DNA of 23,659 bases. It comes from a virus. The notes beneath the pieces are model-generated. The model did not search any database. It had not been told where the DNA came from and saw only the letters and a program-made list of their open reading frames with translations. The stretch's first letter is position 1, and each line of letters begins with the position of its first letter. Of this stretch, positions 1,126 to 21,496 are shown piece after piece. Made by a program: the position numbers and the translations under genes. The DNA lies in IMG/VR virus record IMGVR_UViG_3300006916_000391, positions 1 through 23,659 of that record; one strand, 5' to 3'.

Positions 1126-1461
1126 ATGAGTGAGAAGGCTGATGCTTTGATGCGTTCTGTTCAGGCACATTCTGAGGATAGAGCACTTGAGTTAGCAAGC
1201 AGTCTTGGATTAACGGTTGAACAGTTTGCCTCGGCAAAGATGATGCAGATGCGTATAGAACAATCACCTAAATGGTTTGCACCAAGAAGTCCTCATGGAC
1301 TAATGGTTGATTGTATCTATCTCGTCGCTAAGAAAAGTGGGATGAAGATAAGTGCTGTTAAGATGAGAAACCATACAATGAAGATTTTTGGTGTAGGTAC
1401 TCAACCACGAGCGAGCGTATGGCAAGATGATTTCACAGATGTCATCGAGGAATATACATGA
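1126..1461 (+). CDS. Small helical protein with a faint TFB cyclin-box-like segment
   Basis: A 111-residue protein. I chose the ATG at 1126 because GAGG at 1115-1118 lies seven bases upstream; a TTG at 1120 would be too close to it. Residues about 50-88 contain RSPHGLMVDCIYLVAKKSG followed by a basic KMRNHTMKIFG. This resembles the second cyclin repeat of archaeal TFB (RSP.G...AA.IY.A followed by an RN helix). There is no zinc ribbon and no second cyclin repeat, so it could not be a complete TFB. It might be a decoy or remnant, or the likeness may be chance. Its stop overlaps the ligase-like gene (ATGA). Confidence 0.7.
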   Translation: MSEKADALMRSVQAHSEDRALELASSLGLTVEQFASAKMMQMRIEQSPKWFAPRSPHGLMVDCIYLVAKKSGMKISAVKMRNHTMKIFGVGTQPRASVWQDDFTDVIEEYT

Positions 1462-2684
1462 AGTTCTCAGTGCTTGCTGACATTCATGAACGCTTGAGGT
1501 TGGGTTCTCAGAAACGCTCTCAACTACAACGGCTGATTACAAAAGAAGAAGCCTTGTACTTCTATGAGTTTTTCTTCCCTGACAAAGCGAGAGTGTCAAC
1601 AAGCACTGCTATTGGAAAAGTGGCACATGAACTTTCATTGTTCTATGATGTCGCAAAGAGTATGTTGCCTGATGAAGAGGTATGGTATGCTCTTGCGTCT
1701 GAAAGTAATAAGTCAGCATCTCGTGCTCTCTCATGTCAACAGGTACTCGACCTTCCCTTTGAGTCGATGACATTCACAGACATCGCTTACAGGTTCAATG
1801 AAGTCGAGGCTCGTCTTGTATGGAGGTATTTGATGAAGGCTCAACCTCAGATTAGTAAGAGGTCTTTCTTCGGTATCATGTCGATGATAATGAATCTCCC
1901 TGCGAGATTGGTGAAGCAAAGTATGACTCGTGATACATTGATTAAAATGTTCGATGACCCTAACAGCATTCAATCACTTGAAGAGTGGTGGAAGCACAGT
2001 GCTTTCCCATCACCTGCTCGATGGCGACCTTGGATGAAACTTGTACCACCTGAGGATGATTACATTGCAGTGGTTATACCGAATGGTCAGTTGTACTTTA
2101 CTTGGAAAGGAGAAGCAAGGACTCGCTCAGGTGAGCGTATAAGTTCAACTCTCTCAAATGATTATCTCATTGAGTGGTCAGGCGAGACGATGATTGACCG
2201 CATCGCTATATCTAATCCAACTGAAACATGGGAGTCGAGGCTACCGAAAGAAGTTGAATCTTTCAGACTACAAGAGCACGGAGCGTGGGAACAAATTATG
2301 TTGCGACTTAATGATGAAGATGTTCAGTGCGTGAGGCTCGTGCGAGCATCGAGTCACTACGAGCCGGATGAAATCATGGGTTTCACAATCTATCCCCATC
2401 GCTCTCGTGTTTTCTTACGACTACACTCAATTGATGAGAGTCGCTGGACATTGTCGGCTCTTGATGGTCTTGATGATTTTGAACCAGTGGCTAACATCTT
2501 GGACCCGAATGTCGGCGTTAGAAGTGTTGATGAAGATTCATGCGTGGTAATTGAGGTTGCTGTGTTAGCAGTCGACGGTGAAGGCTACATCAACCAGTGT
2601 CTTTTTATCGACACAAGACCGGATTTAGGTATAGGTGATGTCGCTCAGTTAACTGATTTAATCGAAAGGGGGTTGGAAAGTTGA
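1458..2684 (+). CDS. Divergent, probably catalytically dead ATP-dependent DNA ligase-like protein
   Basis: A 408-residue protein with the order of an archaeal/eukaryotic ligase. The N-terminal MKFSVLADIHERL resembles archaeal ligase starts, and EARLVWRYLMKA (117-128) resembles the DNA-binding-domain motif EAKYLVRLILG. A nucleotidyltransferase-like stretch follows (203-250, with TRSGERI), then a motif V-like region (303-322) and an OB-fold-like CVVIEVAVL (362-370). However, no KxDGxR adenylation motif exists anywhere, the motif V lysine is absent and the motif VI region lacks its basic residues. If the homology holds, it can bind DNA but cannot be adenylated; a structural or nick-binding role is conceivable. 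GAGG six bases upstream supports the start. The family call is tentative; the gene itself is secure. Confidence 0.85.
   Translation: MKFSVLADIHERLRLGSQKRSQLQRLITKEEALYFYEFFFPDKARVSTSTAIGKVAHELSLFYDVAKSMLPDEEVWYALASESNKSASRALSCQQVLDLPFESMTFTDIAYRFNEVEARLVWRYLMKAQPQISKRSFFGIMSMIMNLPARLVKQSMTRDTLIKMFDDPNSIQSLEEWWKHSAFPSPARWRPWMKLVPPEDDYIAVVIPNGQLYFTWKGEARTRSGERISSTLSNDYLIEWSGETMIDRIAISNPTETWESRLPKEVESFRLQEHGAWEQIMLRLNDEDVQCVRLVRASSHYEPDEIMGFTIYPHRSRVFLRLHSIDESRWTLSALDGLDDFEPVANILDPNVGVRSVDEDSCVVIEVAVLAVDGEGYINQCLFIDTRPDLGIGDVAQLTDLIERGLES
2667..2672 (+). promoter_or_regulatory. Shine-Dalgarno sequence deciding a TTG start
   Basis: AGGGGG lies eight bases upstream of TTG 2681 but 20 bases upstream of the first in-frame ATG (2693). 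The TTG also overlaps the ligase-like gene's stop (TTGA), matching the coupling used elsewhere in this operon. Confidence 0.5.
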
Positions 2685-3112
2685 ATGAAGATATGATGCT
2701 CGGTCTTGGCTACATATTAGGTGGCATTCGTTTCAGTGTAAACATATCTAAAGCGAGTGATAGACCCTCAGGTTATCGAGTTAGACCTTGTGTTAGGTGG
2801 CAAAAGACACCACCACTATATGCCGAGCAGGTTGTTAATGAAGCACTATCGGTCGTCGGGCTTGAAGTTCAAGATGTGTATGATACGAAGAAAGAAGTTC
2901 TTGCATGGATTACATTCATACTACGAATGGATGACGCTTACAAGGTGCGTAAATTATTTGCAGACCAAGATGGACTCGGTGCTCTCCTGTGGGTACATGA
3001 TAACCCTGCTCCTAAAACCTACGAGAATTTCATTCAATGGGCTGAAAGATATGACAATGAAATCGAAAGACTGGAGAGTTCACTACTTAAAGAAACATCA
3101 AAAGGGGTCTAA
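2681..3112 (+). CDS. Hypothetical protein, 143 aa; possible LAGLIDADG-like remnant
   Basis: The start is probably TTG 2681, supported by AGGGGG eight bases upstream; ATG 2693 is the alternative. The N-terminus LGYILGGIRFS, followed by a basic beta-rich stretch (GYRVRPCVRWQKTPP) and helices, faintly resembles the fold order of a LAGLIDADG endonuclease (YLLGL..DG then YRVR). The catalytic acidic residue expected at the end of the first motif is missing, so this would be a non-cutting relative at best. The C-terminus is acidic and helical and ends with a segment shared with the partial gene at the left edge. It lies between the ligase-like and clamp-loader genes. Function unknown. Confidence 0.7.
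   Translation: MNEDMMLGLGYILGGIRFSVNISKASDRPSGYRVRPCVRWQKTPPLYAEQVVNEALSVVGLEVQDVYDTKKEVLAWITFILRMDDAYKVRKLFADQDGLGALLWVHDNPAPKTYENFIQWAERYDNEIERLESSLLKETSKGV
3079..3108 (+). repeat. Direct repeat copy 2 (partner at 96-125)
   Basis: This is the partner of the repeat at 96-125. The perfect core lies at 3079-3092 and a second matching block (ACATCA) at 3095-3100. The reading frame is the same in both copies (SLLKETSKGV here). Confidence 0.5.
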
Positions 3113-3114
3113 TC

Positions 3115-4044
3115 ATGTTTGAACCATTGACATTCTTGGAGATTGTAGGGCAACCTGAATTTGTATCAGATGCTTTAGAATGGAGTTCAAAAGATAAATA
3201 CCCAAATGCTGTACTACTCTACGGACCACCGGGCACTGGTAAGACTACTGGTGGTAAAGTAATCGCTCGTGAAATGTTGAAAGATTTCTTTGACCCCATG
3301 AATTTCACCATGACTAATGCCAGTGACGATAGAGGTATTGATTTCATTCGTCATGAACTAAAGAACTGGGCTTCCATGAAAGCAATCGGTGCTGACCGTC
3401 GAGTCATATTACTGGATGAGGCTGACGGTCTAACACCTGCTGCTCAAGATGCACTGCGTCAAGTCATAGAGTTGAATGCAGACAATACGCTGTTTGTTCT
3501 TACAGCAAATGACATTACAAAGATTAGACCTGCTATCAAAAGCAGATGTGCCACCTATGAATTTGGACCTATTACACCCGAAGATGGTGCTTCACGCTTA
3601 ATGCAGATTCTCCCTGAATTAGATAGAAAGCGTACTGATGAATGGTACGACGCTGCTCTTTACCTTATGCATCACTGTGGTGGTGATATGAGAAGAGCAA
3701 TACAGAAGTGGGCTTATTCAGATACCCCACAAAAAATACTCGACATTCGTATTTCTGAGGCAAGTGGCTCAAAGGCAGCCCTCGCAGCAGTAGGCGGTGA
3801 GTGGATGAACATGCGTTCATCGTTATATTCCATGTTGGACAATGGCATGACGATTCATCAAGTCATGCGTTCATTCCATCAAAACCTTACATCCTTCTTT
3901 GAGATGGATGCTGATACAACATTCACAGTGATGGCTGTGCTTGGCGAGATGATACCACACATGTATGAGTGGTCGCTCGGTTCCTATTCCTTCGTTGACT
4001 GCCTTGTGGCACGATTGAAGAAGGAGGTGCAAAAAAATGAATGA
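3115..4044 (+). CDS. rfcS: Clamp loader ATPase, replication factor C small subunit type
   Basis: An AAA+ ATPase of 309 residues, close to the usual archaeal RFC small subunit length. It shows the RFC signatures in order: N-terminal VGQPEFVSDAL, Walker A GPPGTGKT (37-44), Walker B VILLDEADGL (97-106), sensor 1 VLTAND (128-133) and the SRC arginine-finger motif IKSRCATYEF (141-150). A C-terminal helical collar domain follows. RFC loads the ring-shaped clamp onto primed DNA using ATP; the clamp is encoded 2.7 kb downstream at 6787. No large RFC subunit is seen here, so the loader is either homomeric or uses a host subunit. It ends in an 8-base overlap with the next gene. Confidence 0.95.
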   Translation: MFEPLTFLEIVGQPEFVSDALEWSSKDKYPNAVLLYGPPGTGKTTGGKVIAREMLKDFFDPMNFTMTNASDDRGIDFIRHELKNWASMKAIGADRRVILLDEADGLTPAAQDALRQVIELNADNTLFVLTANDITKIRPAIKSRCATYEFGPITPEDGASRLMQILPELDRKRTDEWYDAALYLMHHCGGDMRRAIQKWAYSDTPQKILDIRISEASGSKAALAAVGGEWMNMRSSLYSMLDNGMTIHQVMRSFHQNLTSFFEMDADTTFTVMAVLGEMIPHMYEWSLGSYSFVDCLVARLKKEVQKNE

Positions 4045-5377
4045 TGAATATGAAGAAGTTTATGAAGAAGAAACAGAAGAAACAAGCCAAAACACAGGGC
4101 TTCCCGCCGGTGTCATGGAAAGACTTAGTGCATACGCTGAGCGAACTAAGAAAGAGTTAGCCAGTGTTAAGCAAGAGTTCTATGATTACATAGCCAAAGA
4201 ATACTTGTGTGAAGATGCTTCAAACGAAGATGAAGATTTGCTTGAAGATTGGGCAGAACAAATGCTTGTAGAAACCCGTAATGTGAGCAGTGGTGGAAGT
4301 AGCGGTGCTTATGCAGGTGTACCATTCGTTGGTATGTTTGTAGGTGTCGAACCAAACTCCCGTGACCGCCGTGGTGGACTTGTAAAGAGAGCAAAGCGTG
4401 ATTTCACACTCGATGCTGGTGCTGCTGTAGGCAGTGGATTTGTAGGTCATTTCACAAAGGGCGATGGTGTTTGGATGCTGAATACATCTAACGGTGAAAA
4501 GCGTACAGAATTTTCAGTAGATGAAATTCCTGACCACTCTTTCTTAGCAGACGGTGAGCGTATTTGTTTACTAACAAAACAAGGTCGAGCAAAAGCGATG
4601 AGCATGATTGGAAGAAATTACTTCTTCCTCGGTGCTCCTGAAAGTGAATTTACAAATGACAATGCTATCCAACTATGGAGACTTGATTGTCAAGGTGAAG
4701 ATGCTAACATGGTAGTCCGTATAGGTGAACCTTGTAGGATAGAAGCAAAACTCCCAAGCGACAATGCACCTGAGGGATTCAAAGATGTACTCAGCACTAA
4801 CCTTGGTATTAAAGACAACATTACATACACTGATGAGTTCGTATCTGAATCAGTTAGACCTTTACTCAATCCAATGAAGATGTGGGTAGATTCTGAATTA
4901 CATGGCTATTACGCTTCATTAGAAGATTTAGTAGAAGCCTTTGAATCAGGTAGCAGGTCGTTTACAATCAACGGTGAGCAAGGCAAGTCAGGTCCAGTGA
5001 TATTCACCAAGGGAACAGTCAACAGATTATCTTCTGAGGCTCGTGAAAGTGAATATGATGAAGGCAACAGGTCTTATTCTTTGTCCCTATCATCCAGTGC
5101 TCTACAAAGTATGCATAGTCAACAAGACTTGCGTGAAGTCATGTGTTGGATAGGTAGTGCTTGTAATGATTTGACTAACCCCTTCGTAGCATTTGAAAAT
5201 GGTGAAGAAATTCCATACGCTGAGAACTCAACTGTATTGGTTTGCGGTAGAATAGCAGTCAAGAGAAAAGATGGAGTCGACATTCCTAATCTGAAAGTAA
5301 TGGGTGTCTTTGCTCACCCTCGTCGCATTCGACGCAGGGCTACTGGTGGAGACACTGGTCGAGGACAATTCGAGTGA
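4037..5377 (+). CDS. Probable ssDNA-binding (RPA-like) protein, OB-fold candidate
   Basis: A 446-residue protein with no strong signature. The N-terminal 80 residues are very acidic and helical. The rest is beta-rich with Gly-rich turns, including GVPFVGMFVGVEPN (about 94-107) and a late STVLVCGRIAVKRKD, resembling OB-fold strands. The C-terminal tail is basic (RRIRRRATGG). A replication protein A-like role is inferred from this make-up and from its place between the clamp loader and the RadA-like ATPase. The start has a strong GGAGGTG seven bases upstream. I see no zinc finger, which some archaeal RPAs carry. A structure prediction would settle the fold. Confidence 0.85.
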   Translation: MNDEYEEVYEEETEETSQNTGLPAGVMERLSAYAERTKKELASVKQEFYDYIAKEYLCEDASNEDEDLLEDWAEQMLVETRNVSSGGSSGAYAGVPFVGMFVGVEPNSRDRRGGLVKRAKRDFTLDAGAAVGSGFVGHFTKGDGVWMLNTSNGEKRTEFSVDEIPDHSFLADGERICLLTKQGRAKAMSMIGRNYFFLGAPESEFTNDNAIQLWRLDCQGEDANMVVRIGEPCRIEAKLPSDNAPEGFKDVLSTNLGIKDNITYTDEFVSESVRPLLNPMKMWVDSELHGYYASLEDLVEAFESGSRSFTINGEQGKSGPVIFTKGTVNRLSSEARESEYDEGNRSYSLSLSSSALQSMHSQQDLREVMCWIGSACNDLTNPFVAFENGEEIPYAENSTVLVCGRIAVKRKDGVDIPNLKVMGVFAHPRRIRRRATGGDTGRGQFE

Positions 5378-6553: not shown

Positions 6554-6787
6554 ATGACTAAGAAGTGGAAATTTTGGAAGAAAGTCATGCAAGACAAACC
6601 ATCCACTAAACCTGTGGTTAATGCGTGTGCTCACTGCGGTAAGCATGTACTCAGACAAAGTAAACTATCTGAGTTTGGAGACACGACTGGACTATTACAA
6701 AGTAAACTACCAATTGATTTTGATGAGCAAATGACTGAAAGCATAGGATTTGATTCAAAACCTCGTAAGTACAGGGGGATGATTTGA
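6554..6787 (+). CDS. Small basic protein with CxxC motif
   Basis: A 77-residue protein with an aromatic-basic N-terminus (KKWKFWKKV) and a single CAHCGKH motif at about residues 25-31. One CxxC plus the nearby histidine could make a small metal site or dimeric zinc knuckle. I chose ATG 6554 over GTG 6545 because AGGTGATT overlaps the GTG and sits at the right distance from the ATG. Its stop overlaps the clamp start (TGATG), so it is probably co-translated with the clamp. Function unknown. Confidence 0.65.
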   Translation: MTKKWKFWKKVMQDKPSTKPVVNACAHCGKHVLRQSKLSEFGDTTGLLQSKLPIDFDEQMTESIGFDSKPRKYRGMI

Positions 6788-7542
6788 TGACTGAGGTTTC
6801 TATAGACCGTAAGCAAGCATTGCAGTTTTTGTCATCTTTTGGTAAGAATGTCGGTGACCTAAAAGTGACCTTCGCTATAGATGGTAAGATGACAGCAACA
6901 GTTGCTTTCATGTCGCACTATTTTCATAAAGAGCGTCAGGTACAGGGTATCGTTAGAACGGCAGGTACAATCGACATTAGCGAATTGGAGAAGGCATGTA
7001 AGTTCCTCAAGAGTGCGAAGAGTGACAATGTGACTCTCAAGCAGTTAGGAAGTGGTAAGACACTTTACATCAATGCAGGAACAACTAAAGTTCAATTCCC
7101 AAGTAGCACTGCTATTGTATCATACAGCAAGGTACCATTGATTGAGCGACTCATCAATGATAGTAAAGATTCACAGTGGACTAAGTGGCACAACGCTGAG
7201 TTAGAGATTGGCGGTGTTGTCAACATTACTGACCTTTTGACTGTATCAAAGATGCGTGGCATCCTTAACGCCAGTCCGATATTCAAGGTCATAGCCAATG
7301 CAGAAGAAGGAGAATTGAGTATTACTGCCGGTAAGCGTCATGAGGCTCGACTCTTTAACACAGTGACTCTAAGTGACCCTGTGGGACCTAACGCTTCTAT
7401 TGAGTCCACTTACGGACCGTGGTTGATGGAGAACATAGGATTGCTAAGTGAAGGTAATGCGGAAGTTCATTTCGGCTCCAACACTATTCTCGCTGTTGAA
7501 CAAGATAATGATTTACTCATTGTAGTGGACCAACGGGCGTGA
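6787..7542 (+). CDS. pcn: DNA sliding clamp, PCNA-like
   Basis: A 251-residue protein, the usual length of archaeal PCNA. It shows the expected pattern of two similar beta-rich domains joined midway: domain 1 ends near the strand TTKVQFPSS, and domain 2 has SPIFKVIANAEEGELSITAG. A typical clamp C-terminus follows (AEVHFGSNTILAVEQDNDLLIVVDQRA region). A homotrimeric ring tethering the polymerase to DNA is the known role. It sits directly upstream of the polymerase and downstream of the loader. ATG 6787 overlaps the previous stop; an alternative TTG lies one codon earlier. Sequence identity to cellular PCNA is low, so the call rests on length, end motif and context. Confidence 0.8.
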   Translation: MTEVSIDRKQALQFLSSFGKNVGDLKVTFAIDGKMTATVAFMSHYFHKERQVQGIVRTAGTIDISELEKACKFLKSAKSDNVTLKQLGSGKTLYINAGTTKVQFPSSTAIVSYSKVPLIERLINDSKDSQWTKWHNAELEIGGVVNITDLLTVSKMRGILNASPIFKVIANAEEGELSITAGKRHEARLFNTVTLSDPVGPNASIESTYGPWLMENIGLLSEGNAEVHFGSNTILAVEQDNDLLIVVDQRA

Positions 7543-7546
7543 GTCT

Positions 7547-9916
7547 ATGATTGTAGACTGGTATTATCCTGAGTGGTCTGATTCCTTCGGCTCTCCCTCG
7601 TTGTATTTGAGAACAAGAGACAAAGATGGGAAACTTACGACTCGCACAATTCATCCTGAGGATGATGATTACATGCGACCATTCTGTTGGATTCCATCAA
7701 ATACACCAACATGGAGGATAAACAGATTACAGAATCGTATTCCTGATGCTACTATCCATTACGAAGAGAAAGCGACTGGGCGTGACGGTCGACCCTTAAT
7801 AAAGTTAGAAGTTGACAAACCCAATGACCTTTGGGAAGTCAAGGACTTAATGCCTACCTACGAAGCAGACTTAAATTATCTCGACCAAATCTTACTTCAC
7901 TTCTATCCTGATGAAGTCCCTGAATTTCATCCTCGTGTGTGGTACTTTGACCTTGAGTGGGACCCTAAAGAAGATTTCACTACAGTCATGGCTGTTGTCG
8001 ACACTCATGCTGATGTTCCCGTGGTATTCGCTTGGAAGCCTGACATCGACACAATGCAAGTCAATTTCATTGAGCGTGAGGGTGGGTACATACTACACGA
8101 GTACGGTAGTGAGGCAGCGATGCATGAGGGATTTATTCAACACATGGAAGCCTGTGACCCTGATATTCTCGTGGCTCACGCTATCATGTGGGCTGACTTA
8201 CCCCATCTTATGCGTCGTTTAGATGACCCTAACAGATTATCACCACTTGGTCGTGTGAGCAAGCCATTCAAAGAAAATGGCTACAAGGACACTCAACAAC
8301 CTATCAAGGGTCGTCTATGTTGGGACTCAGCAGCACACTGGAAGAGCGGTAGTGGATTTGAAACACTATGGCAAAAGTCAGGGCGTGGGCAATTACCTAA
8401 CCGTAAATTGAATACTATCGCTGGTTTATTGGAACTGGGTTCTAAGTTGACTGACGAAATTGAAGGTATGACTGTTCACAATGGGTGGTACGACTACTAT
8501 GAGCACTTCGTAGATTACTGTTTACGGGACACCACCTTATTAAGCAGCATCGCTGAGAGACTCCATGCTATCGAGTTCTTCGTTGCTATGCAGAAATTAT
8601 GCGGTGTGTCGTGGGGTAGTACCCACAAAGTGACACGATACTTCCGTGGGCTTGTAGGTCGAAGGACTGATGAAAAGGCACCGAGTGCTCGTAATCAAAA
8701 CCGTGAACATATGCAAGCAGCCCACATACCTGACCCAATTCCCGGCAGGCACGAAGGCGTGGCTCTTGTGGACTTCGCTTCACTCTATCCTAATATCATT
8801 CTCTCAGACAATCTCTCTTACGAGACGAAGCGTGATGGACCCGGACCCGGCATCAAAAGTCTTGGCAACGGTACTCACTGGGACCAAACTAAGAAAGGAT
8901 TGCTACCTTCTATCGTAGAAGAAATGCTCGACCTCAGAAGAGAGTACAAGCGTAAAATGCGTGAGGCTGAGACAGAAGAAGAAAAGTTGGGCTACAACAT
9001 GCTCCAAACAGCAGCAAAGGTTGCAGTCAATGCTCTTTACGGTATGTGTGGGATGAAGGCTGTCGACGGTATGTGGATTGACAATGATATTGCATCGTCA
9101 ATTACATTCCGTGGGCGTGAGGCTATTCGCCATCTGATGAGTGAGAGTGAGGAGATGGGCTACAAGTCTCTCTTTGGTCACACTGACTCGGCATTCATCC
9201 AAGTACCGTTTGATGAGGCTGAGGCTTTGGCTGAGCATTTGACAAAGACGGCTCAAGAGAAGTTAGACATGAGTCACATGGATGTAGAACTGGAAGCCTA
9301 CTTCGATTACTGGACCACTGCTCCAGTTAAGAATCGTTATTTCGGCTACAAAGTATATCCTGAAAGCGATGCTGGTCAATTGAAAGTTTCAGGCTATGAA
9401 TTGAAGGCATCGAGTTCAGCACCGATTACAAAACAAGTACAGGAGACAGCCATGGATTTAATAGGGCACGGTGCAGATGAAAATGAAGTCACTGAAACTC
9501 TCAGAACCTTATCACTTTCAGTAAAGAATGGCGATGTACCTATGATGCACGCCGTTTCTTCCACTCGATTAACAAAGGACCCTGACTCTTACGATTCACC
9601 TACACCCGGTGCCAAGGCTGCGATGTATTACAATCAGCATTGCGAAGGCGAGAGGTGGAGAAAGGGAGACAGCGTCACTTGGACCTATGTCAAAGGAGTC
9701 AAAAACGGTGTACCTGACTATGTCACTATCAAGGGTGAAGATGTACCTGTTCGCTTCGTAGCATTCAGGGAAGTAGAAGAGTTGGCTAATTACATTGTTG
9801 ACTGGGATAAAGTGCTTGATGTACTTGTTAAATCTAAACTAAAGCGACTTTACGAAAGTGTAGGATGGGACATATCAGCAGCAGCAGGAGATGTTGTACC
9901 TAAAGCATATTGGTGA
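7547..9916 (+). CDS. polB: B-family DNA polymerase with 3'-5' exonuclease domain
   Basis: A 789-residue replicative polymerase. Exo I is YFDLEWD (D135, E137) and Exo II is a divergent HAIMWADLPHL (D217). Exo III is YCLRD (Y324, D328), so proofreading residues are kept. Polymerase motif A is VDFASLYPNII (D409), motif B is KVAVNALYG (491-499) and motif C is FGHTDSAF (543-550). In motif C the first aspartate of the usual DTDS is histidine (H545), while D547 remains. Motif A is intact, so the enzyme is probably active. No intein interrupts it. It needs a primer, presumably from the primase at 12468, and would work with the clamp just upstream. The usual family length is 750-900 residues. No PIP box is evident at its C-terminus. 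Confidence 0.97.
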   Translation: MIVDWYYPEWSDSFGSPSLYLRTRDKDGKLTTRTIHPEDDDYMRPFCWIPSNTPTWRINRLQNRIPDATIHYEEKATGRDGRPLIKLEVDKPNDLWEVKDLMPTYEADLNYLDQILLHFYPDEVPEFHPRVWYFDLEWDPKEDFTTVMAVVDTHADVPVVFAWKPDIDTMQVNFIEREGGYILHEYGSEAAMHEGFIQHMEACDPDILVAHAIMWADLPHLMRRLDDPNRLSPLGRVSKPFKENGYKDTQQPIKGRLCWDSAAHWKSGSGFETLWQKSGRGQLPNRKLNTIAGLLELGSKLTDEIEGMTVHNGWYDYYEHFVDYCLRDTTLLSSIAERLHAIEFFVAMQKLCGVSWGSTHKVTRYFRGLVGRRTDEKAPSARNQNREHMQAAHIPDPIPGRHEGVALVDFASLYPNIILSDNLSYETKRDGPGPGIKSLGNGTHWDQTKKGLLPSIVEEMLDLRREYKRKMREAETEEEKLGYNMLQTAAKVAVNALYGMCGMKAVDGMWIDNDIASSITFRGREAIRHLMSESEEMGYKSLFGHTDSAFIQVPFDEAEALAEHLTKTAQEKLDMSHMDVELEAYFDYWTTAPVKNRYFGYKVYPESDAGQLKVSGYELKASSSAPITKQVQETAMDLIGHGADENEVTETLRTLSLSVKNGDVPMMHAVSSTRLTKDPDSYDSPTPGAKAAMYYNQHCEGERWRKGDSVTWTYVKGVKNGVPDYVTIKGEDVPVRFVAFREVEELANYIVDWDKVLDVLVKSKLKRLYESVGWDISAAAGDVVPKAYW

Positions 9917-18511: not shown

Positions 18512-21496
18512 TCATGGTATAGCACCGTGTTGTGCTGCTACAACTGCTGCTATTCTTTGGATGGCTTGTTCTATTGTGAGAGGTGGAGCACCTACCCAAT
18601 TGGCGGGATTAGCAGGATTGTAAACATCTGCTCCTGCTTGACCCGATAATACATAAGCAACATCAGCAAGAGTCGAGGCTGCTGTTAAATCTCCATTACT
18701 GTCAGCAACCAATACTGCACTTGTCACGGCTGATTGACGGATAGTTCCTGTCACATCTAAGGCTTGAGCGGGAGAAGTAGTTCCAATACCCACATTACCA
18801 TCCATTGTCATTTTGTGGTCTGTGCCGTCTTTATCAGAATAAACATGAAGAACAGAATCAGTAGTTCCGACTCTAAGAATCCTAAAATTACCATCAACTG
18901 ATGTATCTGAATCTCTAAAGATTCTAAGTAGTTGTTCGGTTCCTGTTGCGGTGGAAACAGGACTTATATCGAATGTTACAGGTTCAGATGCAGTATTATT
19001 AATCGCTTTTAATCTTGCTTGAGAATCAACAACCGCAGTTAATTCTGCATGTCCTGTTTGCCCTGTTTCTTGCACTCTTATTGTAGGATTAGAAGCCCCT
19101 TCAATATGTAATTCCGCAGAAGGAGAAGTAGTTCCAATACCCACATTTCCATTTCCGTCAATTCTCATCTTTTCGCTAATAATATCTGTTGAAATGGTAG
19201 CATCATGAGTAAAAAATGCTAATCCTCCAACATCTGCATCCGAACCTGTTTGAACACCTGCGATAGAACCGAATGGTCTTCCCGAATTGATTTTAGTAAA
19301 AGTCATACCAACAGATTCATTATCATCGGCTTGAGTTCCACCTGCTTGTTCAAGAATAAGTGTAGCGGTATTGATTGCACTTGTAGGGTCAAAATTTGCA
19401 CTTGATTTAATATGCAAATCAGCAGAAGGAGCAGTTTCACCAATACCGACTTTTTTATTCCCATCAATTCTCATTACTTCATTTAATGGGTCATTATACA
19501 AATCGCTTGGACCTTTTGTTTTGAAAGCAATATATCCCTCAAAATTATTAGAATTTGCACCCGCCATAGCAATTTCACTTAATGAAGTAGTGCTACCGCT
19601 ATTTCTTAATTTAAGGACTCTTTCAGTTGTTCTATCAGTAGTGGTTAAAGAAATATTACCATCTTCAACATCTAATCTCTCATCAGCAGTAACATTTTGA
19701 TTTAGTCGAATACCTACATTTCCTGTTGAACCATCAATACGCAATACTTCGGTTGGAGTTCCACCATCGTTAATTTTGAAAATAATATCTTTATCTTGTG
19801 CTGTATTTTCAACAATAGCATCATTAGATGATGTTGAAAAATCTAACCCTGCTTCTGTTTCAACTGCGGCAACGGCATCTGCATCAGCGTAAGCAGTAGC
19901 ACTGGGTGCTACACCATCTAACTTAGTTTTATCAGCACCTGTCATTAAACCTGAATCACCACCAGCAACTACTTCCGTGATAACGGCATTAGTACCTGTG
20001 CTACTACTAACTGTTCTTGTACCCGCATCGTAAGCAAGGTCTGTAGAAGGAGCAGCAGCAGCAGCCCCGGCAGCGTCTACGAAGCCTGCATCGTTGTTGA
20101 GTTCACTGATGTCATCATTCTCACGCATGACACTCAATGCACCATGCTTGAGCCGGTCACTGTCATTATCGTCAAGCCATAGTGTGTTGGCATCAACAAC
20201 ACCTGCATCAGCAGCAGCCGGATTGCTCGTTTGTGGGGTCAACTCAAGCCCAGTAGGGTCAATTAGACCAGTCACTGTCAACTTACCGTCGACGGTAAGT
20301 TCGTTGGCTGCTGTGTCGTATGATAGCGTCGAGTCACTGGTAAATCCACCGGCACCGTCAGATAATTGCACAAGCCCACTGGTTCCACTTGAAGTAGTAG
20401 CAACTGTACTACTGAATAGTACCCGCTTCCAATTAGTACCATCGTATGCGAACATAATAGCATCACCAGCAGTGATAGCCTGATTCAAACCAGTGCTGTC
20501 AAATGTCACTGTACTACCACTCGGTACTGAAACAAATACACTATGTCCGGGCGGGAAAGTACCGCTTGGGTTTAGATTGATAGTTGTTGATGGCGTTAAA
20601 ACAAATACACGGTCACCATCAAAAGTAAAAGTTTGATTTGACCCCGGACTCGATACATCAATGTTAGTAGGTCCAAGTAAGTGTGTATGACGGTTTGCAC
20701 CTGCTTTAGCACTGTAGTACAACATGGATTCACCATCACTGTTGAATGATTGCCAAATAATACCGTTGTCACCAAAGGTACCAGTCTGTCCTGTGTGAAC
20801 TTGAGACAACGCCGTATGACCATTTATTCCAGTAGTCGATGAAATAGTGCCATCACGAACAGGCGATAAGTAAAGAGGTGTAGGTCGGACAAACACTCTT
20901 TTGTCGTTAAATTCACTAAGCGATTCAATGTTCAAAGTACCTACTGTGCTACCACCAGCATTTGTAGCACGAACAGTACCGAGCACTACCGATTGACGAT
21001 TGTCACCAGCACCACTACCTGTCTTTAGATAAGCAGTAGCACTACCTGTGATAGATGGATAAGCACCCACGGCAGTGGTAATGTTTGTAGTCTGAGATAC
21101 TTTCAAGCCATCAGGTGTAGCGATGACGACAAATAGACACTCTTGACCACTACTTAGTGCTGTAAAACTACCTAACATCTCAGCAGTGCCAGTCAAGTTT
21201 AGAGTGACGGTAATGTCGCTACCACCACCTATAGCGTAAAGTACACCATCGAGAATGACATCACACGCCTTGACGACGAACTGATTAGCAGCAGCACCAG
21301 CACTAATTGAGCCGGGTAAATCAGGAGGGTCATTACGGTCAGAATCACCATAGGCAGTGTCATGAGGAAGTAATATACCATTACCATGTACCCCTTCGTA
21401 AAGATTTGTAAGTGATGGTGATAGTATATGGTCGCCGTCTTTTAGTCCATCATTAGTTCCATCTGTATGCCCCGAAATAGGATTGTTTGTACTCAT
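18512..21496 (-). CDS. Tail fibre / receptor-binding protein
   Basis: A 994-residue protein rich in Ser, Thr, Gly, Asp and Ala with a low-complexity, beta-repeat character. Motifs recur: MRIDGN..VGIG.T.PSA.LHI appears in four more or less decayed copies in the C-terminal 40 percent. GLMTGADKTKLDGV, then ATAYADADAVAAVE, is a sequence type common in phage tail fibres and linkers. The N-terminus (GHTDGTNDGLKDGDHI) is probably the virion-attachment end. The C-terminus ends in an alanine-rich helix (TIEQAIQRIAAVVAAQHG), which may trimerise. The likely role is host recognition. GAGGTGA precedes the ATG. The stop lies six bases from that of the opposing operon. Confidence 0.85.
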   Translation of the reverse strand: MSTNNPISGHTDGTNDGLKDGDHILSPSLTNLYEGVHGNGILLPHDTAYGDSDRNDPPDLPGSISAGAAANQFVVKACDVILDGVLYAIGGGSDITVTLNLTGTAEMLGSFTALSSGQECLFVVIATPDGLKVSQTTNITTAVGAYPSITGSATAYLKTGSGAGDNRQSVVLGTVRATNAGGSTVGTLNIESLSEFNDKRVFVRPTPLYLSPVRDGTISSTTGINGHTALSQVHTGQTGTFGDNGIIWQSFNSDGESMLYYSAKAGANRHTHLLGPTNIDVSSPGSNQTFTFDGDRVFVLTPSTTINLNPSGTFPPGHSVFVSVPSGSTVTFDSTGLNQAITAGDAIMFAYDGTNWKRVLFSSTVATTSSGTSGLVQLSDGAGGFTSDSTLSYDTAANELTVDGKLTVTGLIDPTGLELTPQTSNPAAADAGVVDANTLWLDDNDSDRLKHGALSVMRENDDISELNNDAGFVDAAGAAAAAPSTDLAYDAGTRTVSSSTGTNAVITEVVAGGDSGLMTGADKTKLDGVAPSATAYADADAVAAVETEAGLDFSTSSNDAIVENTAQDKDIIFKINDGGTPTEVLRIDGSTGNVGIRLNQNVTADERLDVEDGNISLTTTDRTTERVLKLRNSGSTTSLSEIAMAGANSNNFEGYIAFKTKGPSDLYNDPLNEVMRIDGNKKVGIGETAPSADLHIKSSANFDPTSAINTATLILEQAGGTQADDNESVGMTFTKINSGRPFGSIAGVQTGSDADVGGLAFFTHDATISTDIISEKMRIDGNGNVGIGTTSPSAELHIEGASNPTIRVQETGQTGHAELTAVVDSQARLKAINNTASEPVTFDISPVSTATGTEQLLRIFRDSDTSVDGNFRILRVGTTDSVLHVYSDKDGTDHKMTMDGNVGIGTTSPAQALDVTGTIRQSAVTSAVLVADSNGDLTAASTLADVAYVLSGQAGADVYNPANPANWVGAPPLTIEQAIQRIAAVVAAQHGAIP
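18771..18796 (-). repeat. 26-base direct repeat in the tail-fibre gene, copy A
   Basis: This segment is identical over 26 bases to 19122-19147. Both encode the NVGIGTTSP part of the fibre repeat in the same frame. The DNA identity suggests recent duplication or recombination between fibre repeats. Confidence 0.8.
19122..19147 (-). repeat. 26-base direct repeat in the tail-fibre gene, copy B
   Basis: This is the partner of copy A, 351 bases away, an exact number of codons (117). A loss or gain by recombination would therefore keep the reading frame. Confidence 0.8.

Follow-up and report, generated by a model that had tools for sequence, protein, structure and literature searches.

A predicted complete LigI-type pseudo-ligase is conserved beside the clamp-loader gene in most magroviruses

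The open reading frame at 1458..2684 of the window, that is, the whole 23,659-base record analyzed here, almost certainly encodes a pseudo-ligase, a protein with the build of an ATP-dependent DNA ligase that has lost the catalytic residues. The gene lies on the plus strand, as do the 143-aa, clamp-loader, clamp, and polymerase genes described below, and belongs to a run of co-directional genes. It begins with ATG and specifies 408 amino acids; it is a real gene with the start and end given in the first-pass annotation. Gene content and the relatives found suggest that the window derives from a magrovirus-type virus of marine Poseidoniales, a group treated in passages of PMC10768690. We see about an even chance that the protein serves the viral replisome as a subunit without catalytic function, binding DNA or acting as a scaffold.

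Searches of Pfam, PHROG, and PDB sequences with the 408-aa protein gave no match, and Pfam gave no trustworthy ligase match. No relatives were detected in bacterial and archaeal genomes with the patterns used, and none in the INPHARED phages, although diverged relatives could escape both searches. Four close copies were obtained from IMG/VR. The clamp-loader and P-loop proteins encoded nearby served as queries to gather distant magroviruses, whose ORFs were then searched with profiles and in further scans. Pseudo-ligase matches were found in 152 loci, some of them overlapping on the same contig, which provided 78 distinct full-length sequences. Fifty-five of these, with identities down to 17-18%, were combined in alignment A9. 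Five residues, E82, W122, D336, G337, and G391, are kept in all 55 sequences, S83 in 54, and Q397 in 52, while E239, D247, R261, and R293 are each present in 50 or 51.

A first AF2 run with only the four close relatives resulted in a pLDDT of 46 and was discarded. The prediction based on A9, calculated without templates, had a mean pLDDT of 90.2 and a pTM of 0.67, with no residue below 50. When the model was compared with the PDB by Foldseek, the best 50 matches were all ATP-dependent DNA ligases (LigI, LigIV, and archaeal). The archaeal ligases 9dfa (E 2.2e-12), 2cfm, and 3rr5 ranked at the top, followed by human LIG1, LIG3, and LIG4, and 78 matches had E values below 1e-3. VIA-align superimposed the model on 2hiv with a Z score of 17.1 over 400 of the 408 residues and on 3rr5 with a Z score of 17.0 over 402. 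The rmsd values of 6.7-12 Å and TM scores near 0.5 probably reflect a domain arrangement that differs from that of the ligases. The best viral fold matches in BFVD were likewise DNA ligases. An unrelated fold, the outcome that the first-pass annotation had named as refuting its reading, is thus ruled out by the Foldseek, VIA-align, and BFVD matches. Model, Foldseek, and VIA-align agree on a DNA-binding, an adenylation, and an OB domain over residues 1-408, which is the domain order that had been read from the sequence. Sequence profiles alone further back this order and the homology to ligases: hhalign aligned A9 end to end with 16 archaeal ligases over 424 columns (E 5e-6), whereas two unrelated profiles from the window, used as controls, gave E values of 0.58 and 0.44 over only about 20 columns.

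The DNA-binding-domain equivalent is helical and covers approximately residues 1-185 (1458..2012; boundary approximate), as judged from the DSSP assignment of the model, A9, and residue tallies. It carries the conserved E82-S83, E117-A118, and W122. The stretch EARLVWRYLMKA (aa 117-128) had been listed as a ligase framework motif. It turned out to lie in this domain, where it corresponds to no recognised ligase motif and forms a signature of the pseudo-ligase family itself, with the invariant W122 inside it. The adenylation (NTase) domain equivalent, about residues 186-316 (2013..2405), was delimited with the model and the profile alignment with archaeal ligases. It is shrunken, being far shorter than that of a 555-aa archaeal ligase. 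The T-R-S-G-E sequence at aa 222-226 (2121..2135) aligns as a motif Ia-like element that is deleted in some subgroups. A remnant of motif III/IIIa, E239...D247...R261 (2172..2240), was recognized from the profile alignment and the tallies; 50 or more of the 55 sequences retain each of these residues. The motif IV/V equivalent follows at aa 290-323 (2325..2426) and includes Y-x-P in many members. The OB-domain equivalent, about residues 317-408 (2406..2681), contains D336-G337, G391, and Q397 according to A9, the model, and the tallies. Within it lies the motif VI equivalent at aa 362-397 (2541..2648), which runs from the VVIEV strand (aa 363-367) to TRPDLGIGDVAQ.

Motif I of DNA ligases reads K-x-D-G-x-R and contains the nucleophilic lysine. 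As the first-pass annotation had stated, K-x-D-G is absent from the window protein. Its motif I equivalent is I-P-N-G-Q-L (aa 207-212; 2076..2093), in a register assigned manually from the order of the strands and the variants among subgroups. The hhalign alignment shifts this register by a few residues, and either register leaves the window protein without a lysine at the nucleophile position. Other subgroups have P-M-S-G-V-T, L-A-K-G-A-T, or P-K-N-G-I-T at this site. The glycine is often kept and the lysine never, its position being occupied by P, S, V, I, E, or L in the relatives. None of the relatives examined carries K-x-D-G at the aligned motif I, and the loss, whose conservation the annotation had proposed to check, is family-wide; five members contain K-x-D-G strings, all of them outside motif I. 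The best-kept lysine column of A9 reaches 30 of 55 sequences, in contrast to three invariant lysines in the control ligase alignment. As no relative has a motif I K-x-D-G and lysine occupies no column in more than 30 of the 55 sequences, lysyl-AMP chemistry appears very unlikely on the basis of the sequences.

Neither E-G-x-x-x-K of motif IV (E-G-V-M-x-K) nor K-x-K of motif V was found in the alignment with archaeal ligases or in the residue tallies. The R-x-D-K signature of motif VI is also missing. Its lysine position, L390 in the window protein, is occupied by L in 33, M in 15, K in 5, and A in 2 of the 55 sequences, and its arginine position by R in 22. The earlier claim that motifs V and VI had been stripped of lysine and arginine therefore holds for the lysines of motif V and for the majority of the basic residues in motif VI. 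In the subgroup of the window, however, R387 and D389 survive, while the other arginines of motif VI have disappeared. The conserved motif III/IIIa remnants E239, D247, and R261 could indicate that the protein is still a nucleotidyltransferase, working with an unusual nucleophile or on a non-DNA acceptor. Yet no lysine is conserved at any position, the motif IV and V residues are gone, and motif Ia is wholly deleted in some subgroups, which makes this explanation highly improbable.

Low similarity to true ligases might also be expected of a decaying ligase gene, or of an assembly or frameshift artefact. This reading is refuted by the 78 distinct full-length open homologues, by dN/dS values of 0.07-0.22 (for pairs with an estimable synonymous distance), and by an identical gene order in all 152 loci that contain both the pseudo-ligase and the clamp-loader gene, and its likelihood is practically nil. 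In each of these loci the pseudo-ligase gene is located upstream of the gene for an RFC small-subunit-like protein (RFC-S), at a distance of 56-1353 nt that mostly amounts to either ~60 nt or ~410-500 nt. Twenty-six of the 28 long records searched contain the pseudo-ligase. The exceptions are G021, with non-magrovirus-like gene content around RFC, and G017, where other genes fill the place upstream of RFC-S. A retained non-catalytic role, as suggested in the first-pass annotation, fits the purifying selection and the near-universal synteny with the clamp loader.

The constant downstream neighbour of the pseudo-ligase gene in the window, at 3115..4044, encodes an RFC-S-like AAA+ clamp-loader small subunit (Pfam AAA, 2.7e-15; DNA_pol3_delta2, 3e-13), assigned also by synteny. 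A 143-aa gene at 2681..3112 overlaps the pseudo-ligase stop. It fills the larger gap in the subgroup of the window and is present in close relatives; where the gap measures ~60 nt, there is no room for it. A family B DNA polymerase (PolB) is encoded at 7547..9916 (PF00136, 2.9e-40). The gene at 6784..7542 probably encodes a PCNA-like sliding clamp, judged from its size, its position, and the usual magrovirus gene order, and its product had no Pfam match at 0.01. Passages of PMC10768690 include PCNA among the magrovirus genes. Other neighbours in the window are a PD-(D/E)XK nuclease, an ERCC4 nuclease, and a thermosome. Downstream of RFC-S, in the loci read, lies a well-conserved 446-aa protein (4037-5377 in the window; ~84% to L002). 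Pfam gave nothing for it at 0.01, and PHROG nothing credible. It is possibly an RPA-like single-strand binder, which is a guess.

The hosts of magroviruses are abundant ocean archaea, and according to published descriptions the viruses encode almost everything that they need for replication, including an ATP-dependent DNA ligase. We found a second, PF01068-like ligase domain in 26 of the 28 long records, where it is part of a giant ORF of 1732-2147 aa. In G003, the portal and prohead-protease genes flank this ORF, and the capsid gene comes next. Its motif I reads x-x-(D/E)-G-x-R or a variant thereof. None of the 23 sequences read has the nucleophile lysine in place, although a lysine occurs one residue too early in four of them and one residue too late in two. 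Activity of this domain is therefore unlikely, as far as the sequences can tell. The published magrovirus "ATP-dependent DNA ligase" is probably this giant head-module ORF. It resembles the pseudo-ligase in occurring in the same viruses and in having a ligase-like domain without the motif I lysine. It differs in being partly recognized by Pfam, in mostly keeping D/E-G-x-R, and in embedding the ligase domain in a giant protein encoded between portal and prohead-protease genes, rather than being a syntenic replication gene. Two records, G008 and G009, contain an extra small ligase (PF01068, E 2.5e-21 and 1.9e-22) and retain the pseudo-ligase as well. The small ligase of G009, with RKFDGVR as motif I, adjoins a helicase-like gene. 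No intact own ligase was found in 26 of the 28 long records.

Most magroviruses are nevertheless expected to need nick sealing, and the pseudo-ligase might accordingly be a partner subunit of an active ligase, recruiting the host enzyme to the viral fork or forming a heterodimer with it. We know of no such ligase heterodimer. Dead ligase IV retains structural roles in NHEJ complexes, according to passages of the literature, which speaks for a function of this kind. However, the two records with an intact-looking ligase of their own keep the pseudo-ligase anyway, and we consider a partner subunit improbable.

A structural role in replication is suggested because the ligase architecture is kept and the catalytic residues are gone, while the gene is under purifying selection and strictly linked to the clamp loader. 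The protein retains the three domains of an archaeal/LigI-type ligase but has lost motifs I, IV, V, and VI and has a shortened adenylation domain, and in nearly every magrovirus purifying selection keeps its gene in the replication module next to that of the clamp loader. In the mechanism that we propose, the C-shaped ligase body would dock on primed or nicked DNA. It may also dock on the clamp, the clamp loader, or PolB and position them, by analogy with the inactive-ligase middle domain of A20 in the poxviral polymerase holoenzyme. The mean net charges bear on these contacts. Compared with archaeal ligases, the adenylation domain has -2.9 instead of +5.4 and the OB domain -9.6 instead of -3.1, whereas the DNA-binding domain has -3.1 versus -3.9 in true ligases. 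The acidic adenylation and OB parts argue against ligase-like encirclement of DNA, with the reservation that other replisome proteins of the virus are acidic too. We infer that the lower charge makes encirclement of nicks less likely and scaffolding of proteins more so, and that DNA would be contacted mainly through the DNA-binding domain. Against a scaffold, the virus apparently has a PCNA-like clamp and so would not need an A20-type processivity factor. Moreover, gene adjacency indicates co-regulation at most and does not imply contact. On inspection by eye, the conserved C-terminal LGIxDVxQxTDLI could not be matched to a canonical PIP box, because the two terminal aromatic residues are missing.

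The same charge data bear on a regulatory nick or end binder, which would shield nicks, Okazaki junctions, and DNA ends from host ligase, nucleases, and recombination until packaging. The DNA-binding domain is the best-kept part of the protein and its net charge is like that of true ligases. With no intact own ligase in 26 of the 28 long records, controlling the host ligase could matter. Nick specificity is, however, made doubtful by the acidic adenylation and OB domains and the lost nick-contacting motifs, and the constant RFC-S linkage points to a replication assembly. Shielding of nicks and ends is possible but rather unlikely in our estimation.

Among known systems, the archaeal/LigI-type ligases (PF04675-PF01068-OB; 3rr5, 2hiv, 9dfa) are similar in their three-domain order, full-length fold, and profile match (E 5e-6). 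They share with the pseudo-ligase the framework residues E239, D247, and R261, the VVIEV strand and, in part of the family, a C-terminal R-x-D. In contrast to these enzymes, the pseudo-ligase lacks the motif I lysine and D/R, the motif IV E and K, the lysines of motif V, and the majority of the basic residues in motif VI, has a much shorter adenylation domain and acidic adenylation and OB parts, and falls below Pfam detection. Among archaeal viruses in BFVD, the fold is matched most closely by the ligase of Halogranum tailed virus 1 (HGTV-1; gene 223, 475 aa), which is also an archaeal tailed virus. This ligase has an intact RKVDGYR and no clamp-loader gene annotated within 6 kb. HGTV-1 was thus rejected as a syntenic active ancestor, as the ligase is intact and the neighbourhood differs. 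Several uncharacterised nudivirus proteins (GrBNV gp37-like and gp48-like; BFVD ranks 13, 18, 26, 30, 32, 34, and 40) also match the ligase-fold model, and they may be further pseudo-ligases.

A20 of poxviruses offers the clearest precedent for a structural role. PMC11142717 describes the middle domain of vaccinia A20, which is part of the polymerase holoenzyme, as an inactive ligase made up of a catalytic subdomain and an OB fold. Like A20, the pseudo-ligase has an inactive ligase fold and belongs to a viral DNA-replication module. In BFVD the model also weakly matched two poxvirus processivity factors (ranks 23 and 43; E 1.6e-4 and 1.5e-3), a similarity that the general ligase fold alone could produce. 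As described, the ligase part of A20 comprises only the catalytic subdomain and OB fold and is flanked by terminal domains for binding D4 and E9, whereas the magrovirus protein comes from an unrelated virus group, keeps the DNA-binding domain, and is encoded next to clamp-loader and probable clamp genes. We tentatively extend the proposal to the whole virus order, in which a LigI-type ligase may have become, independently of A20, an essential adaptor coupling clamp loader, clamp, and PolB, with the host sealing nicks. The single RFC-S-like gene detectable with the profile used, in each of the 18 records searched, is cited for this adaptor reading.

Inactive ligase domains in viral replication are already known from A20. 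What is new is a complete LigI-type pseudo-ligase that most of a virus order has retained and that the family libraries searched do not recognise. The passages of the magrovirus literature covered here, which do not include the 2017 discovery paper, make no mention of the gene. On this evidence, most magroviruses have no intact ligase but two derivatives without the lysine, of which the first is encoded next to the clamp-loader gene and the second within the head module. This alters the picture of host dependence of abundant marine viruses. It also provides, with A20 of poxviruses as the earlier example, a second and more complete instance of a ligase that has probably been converted to a replication scaffold.

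At the other end of the window, a 994-aa ORF is encoded on the opposite strand (18512-21496, minus strand). It contains repeated fibre-like motifs (MRIDGNGNVGIGTTSPSAELHI) and is probably a tail-fibre protein; the change to the structural module occurs here.
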